Position numbers and translations under genes: made by a program. Of a stretch of DNA of 64,000 nucleotides, positions 32,093 through 37,560 are shown piece by piece. The stretch is from Flavobacteriales bacterium. Lineage in GTDB: Bacteria > Bacteroidota > Bacteroidia > Flavobacteriales_E > Vicingaceae. Under the pieces are notes generated by a model. It was not told the DNA's origin. It worked only from the letters and a program-made list of their open reading frames with translations, and did not search any database. The first letter of the stretch is position 1; every line of letters starts with the position of its first letter. The stretch spans positions 62,001 through 126,000 of the forward strand of contig PALM01000020.1 in the NCBI GenBank assembly GCA_002706365.1, in the 5' to 3' direction.

Positions 32093-34654
32093 ATGGCAGA
32101 CGGAGAGAAGATCGTAAAAATAAATATCGAGGAGGAGATGAAGTCGGCCTACATTGATTATTCAATGTCGGTGATTGTAAGTCGCGCCCTTCCTGATGTG
32201 AGAGATGGTTTAAAACCTGTTCATCGAAGAATCTTGTTTGGAATGCAGGATCTAGGAATCCTTTCCAATAGACCTTATAAGAAATCAGCCCGTATAGTCG
32301 GTGAGGTTCTCGGTAAGTACCACCCTCATGGTGATACTGCAGTGTACGACACAATGGTGCGTATGGCGCAACCGTGGTCGTTGAGATATATGTTGATCGA
32401 CGGACAGGGTAACTTCGGTTCTGTCGATGGTGATAGTCCGGCTGCAATGCGTTATACAGAGGCTCGCTTGCGCAAGCTATCTGAAGAGATGTTGGCCGAT
32501 ATCGATAAAGAAACGGTCGATTTTCGTCTGAACTTCGATGATTCTCTTGAAGAGCCAACGGTATTGCCAACTAGGATCCCTCAATTGCTCGTGAATGGAG
32601 CTTCGGGTATTGCTGTGGGTATGGCCACGAATATGGCACCACATAACCTTTCAGAAGTAGTTGATGGTACAATTGCCTATATAGATAATAAGGATATTGA
32701 AGTAGAAGGTTTAATGGAGCATGTTAAAGCTCCGGATTTTCCTACAGGAGGTATTATATACGGTTATGAAGGTGTAAAGGAAGCCTTCACTACTGGTAAG
32801 GGTAGAGTGGTAATGCGCGCCAAAGCAGAAATAGAAACTACTGCTTCTGGTAAAGAGCGCATCATCGTTACAGAGATTCCATACCTTGTTAATAAGGCCG
32901 ATTTAATTAAGAAGACTGCAGATCTGGTTAATGATAAGAAGATCGAAGGTATCTCCGATATCAATGATGAATCGGATCGTAATGGTATGCGAATCGTATA
33001 CGACCTAAAGCGAGATGCAATTACGAATGTCGTAATGAATAATCTGTTTAAGTATACTGCTTTACAGACCTCATTTTCAGTTAATAACATTGCGTTAGTA
33101 AAAGGTCGTCCTCAGATGTTGAATCTGAAGGATATGATCAGACATTTCGTGGATTTCCGTCATGAAGTTGTTGTTCGCAGAACAGAATATGAATTAAAGA
33201 AAGCCAAAGAGAAGGCGCATGTTTTGGAAGGCTTGATCATAGCCATCGACAATCTAGATGAAGTGATTGAGCTGATTCGTGCTAGTCGTACTCCGGAAGA
33301 TGCGAGAGCAGGCTTAATGGAGCGCTTTAGTCTTACGGAAATCCAAGCAAGGGCTATTCTCGACTTGAGATTGCAGAAACTTACTGGTCTTGAGAGAGAT
33401 AAGCTGAAAGAAGAGCATGCAGAATTGATGAAATTGATCGAGCGCTTGGAGAGTATTCTTGCGGATGAGAGCTTGAGAATGGAGATCATCAAGGAAGAAT
33501 TACTTGAAGTGAAAGAGAAATACGGCGATGAGCGTAGATCTACAATAGAATACTCTGCAGAAGACTTCAGTATAGAAGATATGATTCCAGATGAAGAAGT
33601 GGTAGTCACCATTTCTCACCTTGGATATATTAAAAGGACTCAATTGTCGGAATACCGTCGACAAGGCAGAGGAGGAACAGGATCTAGAGGTAGTTCCACA
33701 AGAGATGAAGACTTCCTGGATCAATTGTTTGTAGCTACTACACACAATTACCTATTGATCTTTACAGAAAAAGGTAAGTGTTTTTGGATGAGAGTCTTTG
33801 AAGTGCCTGAAGGAACCAAAACATCTAAAGGTAGAGCAATTCAGAACTTGATCGCCATTGAACCAGATGATAATGTGAAGGCATATATCTGCGTGAAGGA
33901 CCTTACAGATCAGGAGTACATCGACAATAACTTCATTGTGATGTGTACGAAGAAAGGAACCATCAAGAAAACCAGTCTTGAAGCCTATTCTAGACCTAGA
34001 TCCAACGGTATTAACGCAATTACCATCCGCGAAGGCGACCAATTATTGGAAGCTAAGCTGACCAATGGTACAGATGAGATCATGCTGGCAGTTCGCAGTG
34101 GTAGAGCAATCCGCTTCAACGAAAGTAAGGTGAGAGCTATGGGGAGAAATGCGGCAGGTGTTCGCGGTATTACCCTAGCTACTGAGAAAGATGAAGTGGT
34201 TGGAATGATCACCGTAAGAGAAGCTGAAGAAGAGACTGTTTTGGTTGTATCTGAGAAAGGATATGGAAAACGTTCCTTCCTCAATGATCCTGAAGATGGA
34301 AGCGAAAACTACAGAGTGACAAACCGCGGTGGTAAAGGGGTGAAGACCTTGAATGTGACCGAAAAGACCGGTGAATTGATCGCCATTAAGAATGTAACTG
34401 ATGAAAATGATTTGATGATCATTAATCGTTCAGGTGTGATTATTCGAATTGCAGTTGCAGAATTAAGGGTGATGGGTAGAGCCACTCAAGGAGTTAGACT
34501 GATCAATCTGAAGAAAAATGATTCCATTGCAGCAGTGGCGAAAGTCAGTGTTGACGAGGAAGAGGAGGAAAATCAGGATATAGAGAATAGCACCGAAGAA
34601 GGAGGTCAGACCGAAGATGGCAAAGAGTTTGATAATCCAGAAGCGGAAAACTAA
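32093..34654 (+). CDS. gyrA: DNA gyrase subunit A
   Basis: 853 residues. The winged-helix breakage-reunion domain has the catalytic Tyr 121 in [11 protein letters not shown]. The quinolone region reads [19 protein letters not shown] with Thr at the Escherichia coli Ser83 equivalent. A coiled-coil tower follows to ~500. The C-terminal beta-pinwheel starts with the GyrA box region [12 protein letters not shown] (about residue 525), which separates it from ParC. An acidic tail ([19 protein letters not shown]) closes the protein. It cleaves and passes DNA to introduce negative supercoils. Confidence 0.97.
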
Positions 34655-34673
34655 TTTTGTTCAAAATACAAAG

Positions 34674-35936
34674 ATGAAAAAGACTAGAATCATTTCGCTA
34701 TTTGCCTTAGTGCTTAGCGTATCATTTTTACAGGCTCAGAAAGCCAAGGTTGTAAGTGCTTACAACTATAACAAGGCCTTTGAAAGAGATAGAGACTGCG
34801 ATGACCTTAAAAAGGGAATTGAATCGATAGAATCTGCAACAAAGGATGAGAAAACCAAAGACTGGGCGAAAACCTGGTTTTATGGAGGTAATATCTACTT
34901 TAATGCAATGGTTGACACCTTAGGCTGCAAAGAGAATATTGATAATGTAGTTGATAATGTTTACAAATATTATCTCACTTGCTTAAAGTATAATATTGAA
35001 AACGCAGAGGCTAAGTCATTAGATATCGAGAAAGAAGAAGACTTAGTAAAGCTTAAAGATTTGGTTTTTGACAAAGAAACTGATTTCGATGATCAAAGCT
35101 ATACTAGTTCTATTCTCAATCAACGTTTTCTATACCTTCCTAAATACTTTTCAGATATTATAGTTAAGGCATTTGATTCTCAAGATTATGCAACAGCTAA
35201 AGAATATGCTAAAAAATCAATTGTTGTAAACATGTTTATGAAACGTGTTGATTCTATTGGTATGTATAATGCTGCATTAGCATCTGAAAGATTAGAACAA
35301 TATGATGAGGCTATTGAATATTGTAATGACTTGATAGCTGTTGGTTTTGGCGGTGCGGAGCTATTTCTCTACAAAGCTTCAATATATGACAGACAAGGAG
35401 ATACCGTGAATAAAGTAAAAACGATTAGAGAAGGTAGAGAAGCATATCCAAATAATTCAAAATTGATTACTGCTGAATTGGAATATCTAATTCAAACTGG
35501 TCAAACAGATAAGGCATTGGAGAATTTTGCAATTGCAATAGAGGCTGAACCGACAAATGCATCTTTATATTTCTTTAGAGGAAAGATCTATGATGACATT
35601 GGTAAAATTGAAGTAGCAGCTAAAGACTATACAAAGGCACTTGAACTCGATCCTGAATTTTATGAAGCAGCCTTTAACCTTGGTGCAATGTACTTTAACA
35701 AGGGAGCTGAGTGGAATAGTAAGGCGAGTGCCATTCCTTATAGTCAAAAGACTAAATACAAAGAAGCTACTGAGACAGCAAATGGTTTCTTTAGAAAAGC
35801 AATTCCTGCTTTAGAACAAGCTCATGCCATTAATCCAGAAGACAAAGAAACGATGGCAACTTTGGTTAAAATCTATGCAATGCTTGGACTAAATGATAAA
35901 TATGAAGCTATGAAAGCCAAGCTTCAAGGAAACTAA
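34674..35936 (+). CDS. Exported tetratricopeptide-repeat protein
   Basis: 420 residues from ATG 34674 (MKKTRIISLFALVLSVSFLQAQ, a signal peptide); an in-frame start inside gyrA is rejected. TPR motifs lie in the C-terminal half: AALASERLEQYDEAIEYCND, ASLYFFRGKIYDDIGKIEVA, YEAAFNLGAMYFNKGAEWNS. Likely a periplasmic or outer-membrane-associated scaffold. It starts 19 bases after gyrA and probably shares its transcript. Its codon choice is visibly more AT-rich than gyrA. Confidence 0.85.
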   Translation: MKKTRIISLFALVLSVSFLQAQKAKVVSAYNYNKAFERDRDCDDLKKGIESIESATKDEKTKDWAKTWFYGGNIYFNAMVDTLGCKENIDNVVDNVYKYYLTCLKYNIENAEAKSLDIEKEEDLVKLKDLVFDKETDFDDQSYTSSILNQRFLYLPKYFSDIIVKAFDSQDYATAKEYAKKSIVVNMFMKRVDSIGMYNAALASERLEQYDEAIEYCNDLIAVGFGGAELFLYKASIYDRQGDTVNKVKTIREGREAYPNNSKLITAELEYLIQTGQTDKALENFAIAIEAEPTNASLYFFRGKIYDDIGKIEVAAKDYTKALELDPEFYEAAFNLGAMYFNKGAEWNSKASAIPYSQKTKYKEATETANGFFRKAIPALEQAHAINPEDKETMATLVKIYAMLGLNDKYEAMKAKLQGN

Positions 35937-35958: not shown

Positions 35959-35989
35959 ACCCCTATTGAACTCAATAGGGGTTTTTTTA
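35959..35989 (+). terminator. Terminator of the gyrA-TPR unit
   Basis: The stem ACCCCTATTG (35959-35968) / CAATAGGGGT (35973-35982) with an AACT loop is followed by seven T, 22 bases after the TPR stop. Confidence 0.92.
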
Positions 35990-36035: not shown

Positions 36036-36066
36036 TTTGGCTGGTGTTAAATATTTTTTAACTTTG
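36036..36066 (+). promoter_or_regulatory. Promoter of the candidate ncRNA (-33 TTTG, -7 TAACTTTG)
   Basis: TTTG at 36036-36039 and TAACTTTG at 36059-36066 are separated by 19 bases, an exact match to the Bacteroidota housekeeping promoter. No open reading frame follows. Confidence 0.75.
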
Positions 36067-36071
36067 ATATC

Positions 36072-36195
36072 CATCACGAATAGTTTGCATGGGGTGGATA
36101 ATTCTTACTGAGAAAGACGCTTTCACCATAATAAAGTTTTGATTAATAATTGACCATGCAAACGGTAAGCCCTGACAGTCAGTCGGGGCTTATTC
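36072..36195 (+). ncRNA. Candidate structured small RNA, 6S-like
   Basis: Downstream of the strong promoter, 36083-36092 (GTTTGCATGG) pairs perfectly with 36154-36163 (CCATGCAAAC). The enclosed region has unpaired arms (~19 and ~29 bases) and a small apical hairpin GAAAG-ACG-CTTTC (36112-36124). A 10-bp hairpin (36167-36191) with AAGCCC/GGGCTT base follows at once and then an AT-rich stretch, likely ending transcription. Closing stem, large bubble and apical hairpin recall 6S RNA, which mimics open promoter DNA. The region has no coding potential. The family assignment is inference. Confidence 0.5.
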
Positions 36196-36288
36196 GTTTA
36201 TTTTCAAAACTATCTGGTAGAGCTATTGGTTTCCTAAGTGATAAACTTATATTGTAAACTCGTTTAATTAAGATAAATAAACCCAGAT

Positions 36289-37131
36289 ATGGAGCAATAC
36301 AACGAACCATCAGTCGACATTGGTAAATACAGACCATTCATTTTTATTGGTATTGGATTAGTGATCTTGATCATTATTCTTTCAAACTCATTTAAGATCC
36401 TTCAACCAACAGAAAGGGGAGTGGTGTTTAGGAAATATACCTCAGGTCTAGATGTAGAAAACGTAAAGGGAGAGGGACTGAATGTGATCGCTCCTTGGAA
36501 TGACTTTATTGTATACAATGTTGAGGAGCAGCAAATTGAGGAAACAATGGATGTGTTGTCTAAGGATGGACTTTCGATCAATATCGATGTTTCTTTGCGT
36601 TTTAGACCAAATCCATCTGAAATTGGATTGCTACATCGCAAATTCAACAAGAGTCATGTACAAAACCTAATCCGTCCGGAATTAAGATCTGCGGTGAGAA
36701 AAGTGATTGGACAGTACACCCCGGAAGAGCTTTATGCCTCTAAGCGACAAGAGATCGAGACACGGATTGAACAAAACACAATGGAGATCTTGGCTGATAA
36801 CTATATAGAGCAAAAGGCATTGCTTTTTAGATCCATAAAGCTTCCCGCTACAATTAAGGAGTCTATCGAGACTAAGCTAGCAGCTGAACAAGAGGCTCAG
36901 AAGTATGACTACTTAATTCAAAAGGAGACGAAAGAAGCCGAACGAAGAAGAATTGATGCCGAAGGTAAGGCTGCAGCGAACCGCATTCTTAGTGCCTCTA
37001 TCACCGATAAGATCCTAAAAGAAAAGGGGATTTCTGCTACTGAAGCATTAGCAAAGTCGAGCAACTCAAAGATCATTGTGATCGGTGGAGGTGGAGACGG
37101 ACTCCCAGTTATCCTAAATACGGAGAAATAA
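36289..37131 (+). CDS. SPFH/prohibitin-family membrane protein
   Basis: 280 residues. An N-terminal membrane helix (PFIFIGIGLVILIIILSNSF) is followed by the SPFH/band-7 domain (VVFRKYTSGLDVENVKGEGL, LSKDGLSINIDVSLRF, RSAVRKVIGQYTPEELYASK) and a coiled-coil region rich in Ala/Glu/Lys (AEQEAQKYDYLIQKETKEAE, DAEGKAAANRILS). It is a bacterial prohibitin-like scaffold in the inner membrane, often linked to FtsH-type quality control. The next gene starts three bases after its stop. Confidence 0.9.
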   Translation: MEQYNEPSVDIGKYRPFIFIGIGLVILIIILSNSFKILQPTERGVVFRKYTSGLDVENVKGEGLNVIAPWNDFIVYNVEEQQIEETMDVLSKDGLSINIDVSLRFRPNPSEIGLLHRKFNKSHVQNLIRPELRSAVRKVIGQYTPEELYASKRQEIETRIEQNTMEILADNYIEQKALLFRSIKLPATIKESIETKLAAEQEAQKYDYLIQKETKEAERRRIDAEGKAAANRILSASITDKILKEKGISATEALAKSSNSKIIVIGGGGDGLPVILNTEK

Positions 37132-37134
37132 ACT

Positions 37135-37560
37135 ATGTCGGCTAAAGAAAAAACTGTTGAATACGAAGGGGATGGGGTTACCGTTTTGTGGAAGCCCCAC
37201 CTCTGTATTCATTCAGAATACTGTGTTAATGGTTTGCCTGAGGTATTCAAGCCTAAAGAAAGAAGGTGGATCCAGACAGAGCATGCTTCTGCAGAAGCGA
37301 TAATTAAACAAGTGAAACAATGCCCATCCGGGGCATTGGGCTATAAAACAGAAGGTATGTCAGAAAGTAATCAGAACAAGGGCTCAACTCAGCTTACGGT
37401 ATTGGAAAATGGTCCATTAATGTGTGAAGGACCAATTACCATCAAAAAGCCCGATGGCAGCACGGAAGAAAAAGCAAAGGCAGCTTTCTGTCGCTGCGGT
37501 GCTTCCTCTAACAAGCCATTTTGCGATGGCTCACATTCCAAGATCGATTTTAAGGGATAG
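37135..37560 (+). CDS. Fused Fer4_19 and CDGSH iron-sulfur protein
   Basis: 141 residues with two domains. Residues 1-70 are a divergent 4Fe-4S mono-cluster domain (TVLWKPHLCIHSEYCVNGLP, VKQCPSGAL; three Cys visible). Residues ~85-141 are a CDGSH [2Fe-2S] domain with C-R-C-G-x6-F-C-D-G-S-H (FCRCGASSNKPFCDGSH). CDGSH proteins bind a redox-active, pH-labile [2Fe-2S] cluster through three Cys and one His. The role is probably electron transfer or cluster delivery. It is coupled to the SPFH gene. Confidence 0.9.
   Translation: MSAKEKTVEYEGDGVTVLWKPHLCIHSEYCVNGLPEVFKPKERRWIQTEHASAEAIIKQVKQCPSGALGYKTEGMSESNQNKGSTQLTVLENGPLMCEGPITIKKPDGSTEEKAKAAFCRCGASSNKPFCDGSHSKIDFKG

Follow-up and report, generated by a model that had tools for sequence, protein, structure and literature searches.

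The locus lies on the plus strand of the window (the whole 64,000-nt stretch of Flavobacteriales DNA that was analyzed), between a TPR-repeat gene (34617 to 35936), which itself follows gyrA, and an SPFH/Band 7 gene assigned by Pfam (36289 to 37131). A terminator evident in the sequence at 35959 to 35988 separates the TPR gene from what follows. A promoter of the Bacteroidota −33/−7 type then spans 36036 to 36066, with TTTG at 36036 to 36039, a 19-nt spacer, and TAACTTTG at 36059 to 36066. Downstream of it, the fold z-score and homologues in three other genomes (G001, G040, and, twice, G015) point to a small RNA transcript of ~125 nt, predicted to extend from 36072 to 36197. The first-pass annotation had placed a TTTG-N19-TAACTTTG promoter with no gene behind it between the gyrA-TPR terminator and an SPFH gene, and this description was accurate: the promoter is exact in the sequence and common to all five homologous copies, the RNA is followed by no other gene before the SPFH start (36289), and the flanking terminator and gene are as described. 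By itself, the promoter motif is not rare (a pattern count gave 3 in the window versus 1.3 expected from shuffles). The same placement, in the form TTTG-N18..21-TANN(T/A)TTG, was found upstream of all five copies, with spacers of 18 to 21 nt and a single mismatch in one copy.

Searching the genus and family at the DNA level identified copies in JAUIGQ010000017 (Bacteroidia bacterium Co_bin.160, taken as G001) and DIAJ01000016 (Flavobacteriales bacterium UBA5081, taken as G040). The G001 copy is 85% identical to the window RNA over 141 nt. Using a covariance model built from the window, G001, and G040 copies (R1), we found two tandem copies in G015 (CAJXMH010000005, uncultured Flavobacteriales, identical in sequence), giving a total of five copies in four genomes. 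The tandem pair occupies C5:64764-65028 (L054, 1501 to 1765); its members have diverged from one another, and each has a promoter and a terminator. An A/U-rich strand is kept in copy B of this pair and lost in copy A.

The distribution of the RNA is narrow (4 of 46 family genomes, representing 3 of 16 genera). When 84,980 genomes were scanned for the pattern, only the known relatives emerged, together with unrelated matches lacking the structure; R2, run against 395 genomes of the class, returned only G000, G040, and G015, adding no new member. No copies were found in viral contigs. At 30 TPR loci, the downstream stretches that we inspected contained no RNA outside the four genomes; three of these loci end at contig ends. 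In other family genomes, weaker matches to R1 (L055 to L062) proved on inspection to have no promoter, stem, or terminator and were set aside as chance. An R2 match near a 6S-Flavo locus (L046:517-599) was also attributed to chance, as it lies away from the 6S gene in sequence that reads as protein coding; another such match (L044:1144-1240) falls outside the 6S gene as well.

The TPR gene is the syntenic upstream neighbor in all four genomes. The RNA lies directly 3′ of it in the window, G040, and G015, and in G001 there is one intervening gene, which from our own reading of the sequence we take to be SnoaL-like. The gene after the RNA is the SPFH gene in the window and G001, an uncharacterized gene in G040, and another gene in G015, presumably FAD-dependent oxidoreductase-like by our own reading of its sequence. 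Because the SPFH gene neighbors the RNA only in the window and G001, we do not consider it a cis-regulated target.

Folding of the whole RNA gave −42.5 kcal/mol (z-score, −4.5 to −5.3), a stability that not one of 200 shuffles matched. The terminator supplies much of this stability, the z-score without it being −2.6. At the 5′ end is a leader motif, CCATCAC (36071 to 36077), which is present in four of the five aligned copies and unpaired in most folds. The closing stem, P1, is a perfect 10-bp inverted repeat of GTTTGCATGG (36083 to 36092) and CCATGCAAAC (36154 to 36163). It encloses a conserved 38-nt core, GAGAAAGACGCTTTCACCATAATAAAGTTTTGATTAAT (36110 to 36147), in which 35 to 37 of the 38 positions are identical among the window, G001, and G040 copies; the 3′ part of the core is mostly unpaired, as judged by unpaired probabilities, and is the proposed pairing (seed) strand. 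Every copy contains GAGAA(A)GNCGNTTT..CATA. A possible internal hairpin, P3 (GAAAG-ACG-CTTTC, 36112 to 36124), appears in the RNAalifold consensus and is conserved in sequence, with zero two-sided changes in the pair counts, so that its pairing is only weakly tested. A terminator hairpin of 11 to 12 bp follows at 36165 to 36193; the U-run after it is weak in the window (TTATTCGTTTATTTT) and clear in the other copies. The perfect 10-bp closing stem and the separate terminator hairpin are thus as the first-pass annotation had drawn them. The bubble and apical hairpin that it placed between them are predicted in the window, but interior folds within the closing stem disagree among the homologues, and the 3′ bubble is all but absent from copy A of G015. 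The RNA contains three CCAT tetranucleotides, one each in the leader (36071 to 36077), the core (36124 to 36129), and the 3′ strand of P1 (36154 to 36157), and all three are able to pair with the ATGG of the 5′ strand of P1; a co-transcriptional folding switch between these sites is possible.

Covariation was assessed by counting paired changes in two alignments, A6 (model fitted, to the stem) and A7 (full transcript, not fitted to the stem), which were used instead of a MAFFT alignment that misaligned the apical part of G040. In A6, compensatory changes were seen in four of nine aligned pairs of the closing stem and none were one-sided, a positive outcome for the check on stem covariation in relatives that had been proposed at the outset. 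Pairing was possible in 97.8% of closing-stem cells, and when the partner strand was slid by one to three columns the number of two-sided changes fell to 0. A7 agreed with A6, showing two-sided changes in 5 of 11 closing-stem pairs. In the terminator, 4 of 10 pairs showed such changes, and for stem and terminator together A7 gave nine two-sided pairs, a count reached by 0 of 500 shuffles; slid versions gave 0 to 1. Drawn from five related sequences, the covariation is modest in depth but consistent.

Since there are five copies with a promoter, a compensated stem, and a terminator, and since the upstream TPR gene is constant while the following gene differs, we conclude that the locus is almost certainly a genuine, narrowly distributed small RNA gene, transcribed as a unit of its own. 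As judged from sequence and conservation, it has the promoter and terminator of a trans-encoded sRNA. The earlier reading of the locus therefore survives as far as a stand-alone structured RNA is concerned, on the strength of the covariation, but not in its assignment to 6S, the models for which were unmatched. Rfam searches at gathering and at permissive thresholds gave no credible match; a hit to BSnc120 (22.6 bits versus a gathering score of 114) is a chance match to the terminator. The RNA is new and is covered by no Rfam family. A coding function for a small peptide (MGWIILTEKDAFTIIKF) was rejected, the tiny open reading frame being frameshifted in G001 and G040. Few Bacteroidota small RNAs are known outside Bacteroides and Flavobacterium. 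Within Flavobacterium, Rfp18 (PMC9723704) is likewise an independent structured sRNA conserved at roughly the genus level; it differs in having tested effects on protease mRNAs. With the covariation, the five-copy alignment, and the fixed neighbor gene, any transcriptome from these bacteria can now be screened for the RNA.

As to function, we regard a lineage-specific, trans-acting base-pairing sRNA as the most likely reading, with about an even chance of being correct; we infer this mechanism from the pattern of conservation and from precedent. In this model, a 3′ strand that is A/U-rich and for the most part unpaired (AUAAUAAAGUUUUGAUUAAU) would be exposed by the closing stem; annealed to the initiation regions of certain mRNAs, it would impede their translation, much as GibS does. 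Its complement, ATTAATCAAAACTTTATT-ATG-GTG-AAA, resembles a Bacteroidota translation start, and mRNA start regions complementary to AAGUUUUGAUUA would be the expected partners. The core is nearly identical among the window, G001, and G040 despite TPR proteins that are 58% (G001) and 52% (G040) identical to that of the window, and the stem bases vary with compensation. We count this in favor of pairing, as it suggests pairing-type selection on the core. A conserved, accessible segment of the kind expected of a base-pairing sRNA is present in four of the five copies; copy A of G015 does not have the seed strand at all, which counts against base pairing.

There are precedents in Rfp18 of Flavobacterium (PMC9723704) and in GibS of Bacteroides, whose seed, a long AU-rich stretch that is single stranded, is directed at start regions having no Shine-Dalgarno sequence (PMC7366714). 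GibS is a lineage-restricted, ~145-nt intergenic sRNA of the Bacteroidota with its own promoter and terminator and a conserved AU-rich single-stranded segment, and in these respects the two RNAs are alike (PMC7366714). In GibS, however, the seed lies in an open 5′ end and the targets are proven, whereas here the conserved strand lies on the 3′ side inside the closing stem and the targets are candidates only. The likeness is an analogy of features, and we claim no homology.

Outside the gene itself, the four genomes contain 27 occurrences of the 11-nt seed complement TAATCAAAACT, versus 13 for the reversed control. Among the matches inspected, only two, each in G001, immediately precede the start codon of a plausible gene; none of the 11-nt matches in the window's own genome was so placed. 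The two candidate targets, which also stood out as core-like matches outside the gene just before start codons in G001 (L003/L132 and L128), are a secreted-protein gene (L132, C181:6486-6496) and a DNA adenine methylase-like gene (L128, C128:43426-43436). In each, TAATCAAAACT lies 7 nt before the ATG, and the predicted duplexes with the RNA core have energies of −15.6 (L132) and −14.8 (L128) kcal/mol. A core-like match at the start of a secreted-protein gene in G014 (L055) was rejected as chance; G014 has no homologue of the RNA. In a duplex scan across 52 start regions in the window, the seed did not outperform its shuffled versions (14 of 40 were as good), and searching by seed complement and duplex energy gave no conserved target.

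The loss of the seed strand from copy A bears on a second reading, which we consider somewhat doubtful, namely, that the sRNA binds a protein (an RNA-binding regulator or chaperone) or acts as a sponge for another RNA. The element responsible would be the GAGAAAGNCGNUUUC hairpin with the adjacent CACCAU, and what all five copies share is indeed GAGAA(A)GNCGNUUU..CAUA, not the longer A/U-rich strand. On the other hand, the GAGAAAGNCGNUUUC hairpin shows no two-sided changes, its formation is a prediction only, and no candidate protein or partner was identified.

The first-pass annotation had taken the layout of the RNA to be that of 6S RNA and had proposed a search with the Rfam 6S, 6S-Flavo, and Flavo-1 covariance models. 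None of the three (RF00013, RF01685, and Flavo-1) matched the region, even at an E value of ≤10; the gathering scores are 46.4 bits for RF00013 and 85 bits for RF01685. RF00013 was absent from all 46 family genomes and was found in five control genomes, including those of E. coli and B. subtilis. RF01685 was absent from the window's genome and the 46 family genomes and was positive in 11 of 295 class genomes, all in other families. Known 6S RNA is a rod of ~200 nt in which two helical arms flank a central bubble, with a −10-like element in the 3′ strand of the bubble and the start site of the product RNA in the 5′ strand (PMC8876501). The window RNA recalls 6S in broad terms, having an open region and an apical hairpin above a closing stem, and this stem, formed from the 5′ and 3′ ends, covaries (two-sided changes in four of nine pairs), but it is shorter and narrowly distributed, and we found no conserved rod, two-strand central bubble, or long apical arm; the folds of the five copies disagree, and the apical hairpin is ~5 bp. 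With 6S-Flavo it has in common its occurrence in the Bacteroidota, a stand-alone gene, and a closing stem followed by a terminator; 6S-Flavo is longer and has a conserved sequence of its own. Given the negative models, the restriction to 4 of 46 genomes, the loss of the bubble in one copy, and the absence of a conserved rod in the interior, the 6S identity is not supported, and a layout of closing stem, bubble, and terminator is insufficient to call an RNA 6S.

Covariance models of this kind could miss a true 6S that has diverged, and a third reading, which we think unlikely, is that the locus encodes a minimal, highly diverged 6S-type RNA that would sequester the primary-sigma RNA polymerase, its stem mimicking downstream duplex DNA and its 3′ strand mimicking the nontemplate −7 region. 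The consensus fold, which combines a closing stem with an asymmetric interior and a short apical hairpin, is compatible with this, and in vitro 6S-1 RNA remains functional when truncated to two short arms (PMC8876501). Moreover, the 3′ strand, where known 6S RNAs carry their −10-like region (PMC8876501), contains AAGTTTTG, five of the six bases of TANNTTTG; however, 30 to 46% of shuffles do as well. Also against a 6S-type RNA are the ~125-nt length, terminator included, versus ~200 nt for 6S; the 5′ strand, which holds the product-RNA start site in 6S and is variable and partly paired here; the lack of a large bubble in copy A of G015; and a distribution unlike that of a housekeeping 6S. Neither 6S model finds a 6S-type RNA in the 46 family genomes. 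That gap favors a 6S-type reading, and the RNA might conceivably be a stripped-down RNA polymerase decoy of ~90 nt (without the terminator), consisting of the closing stem, the A/U-rich 3′ strand with its −7-like sequence, and a tiny apical hairpin, in a clade without detectable 6S or 6S-Flavo; we give this specific form little credence.

Least probable is a cis-acting leader or 3′ element of the neighboring SPFH or TPR gene. The RNA does lie between these genes, and the TPR gene in G015 has no terminator of its own before the first copy, but every copy has its own promoter and terminator, the downstream gene is different in G040 and G015 and a gene intervenes in G001, and TPR or SPFH genes occur without the RNA in other family members.

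Elsewhere around the RNA gene, a second consensus promoter, TTTG-N20-TAATTTTG (34628 to 34659), lies at the end of gyrA, just 5′ of where the TPR gene probably begins, at ~34674 (MKKTRIISLF...). Because this promoter precedes the likely start, the open reading frame start listed at 34617 is probably too early. Downstream, a gene for a Fer4_19 and CDGSH iron-sulfur protein (37135 to 37560) lies between the SPFH gene and a DUF2911-like gene in the window and is missing between the same neighbors in G001.
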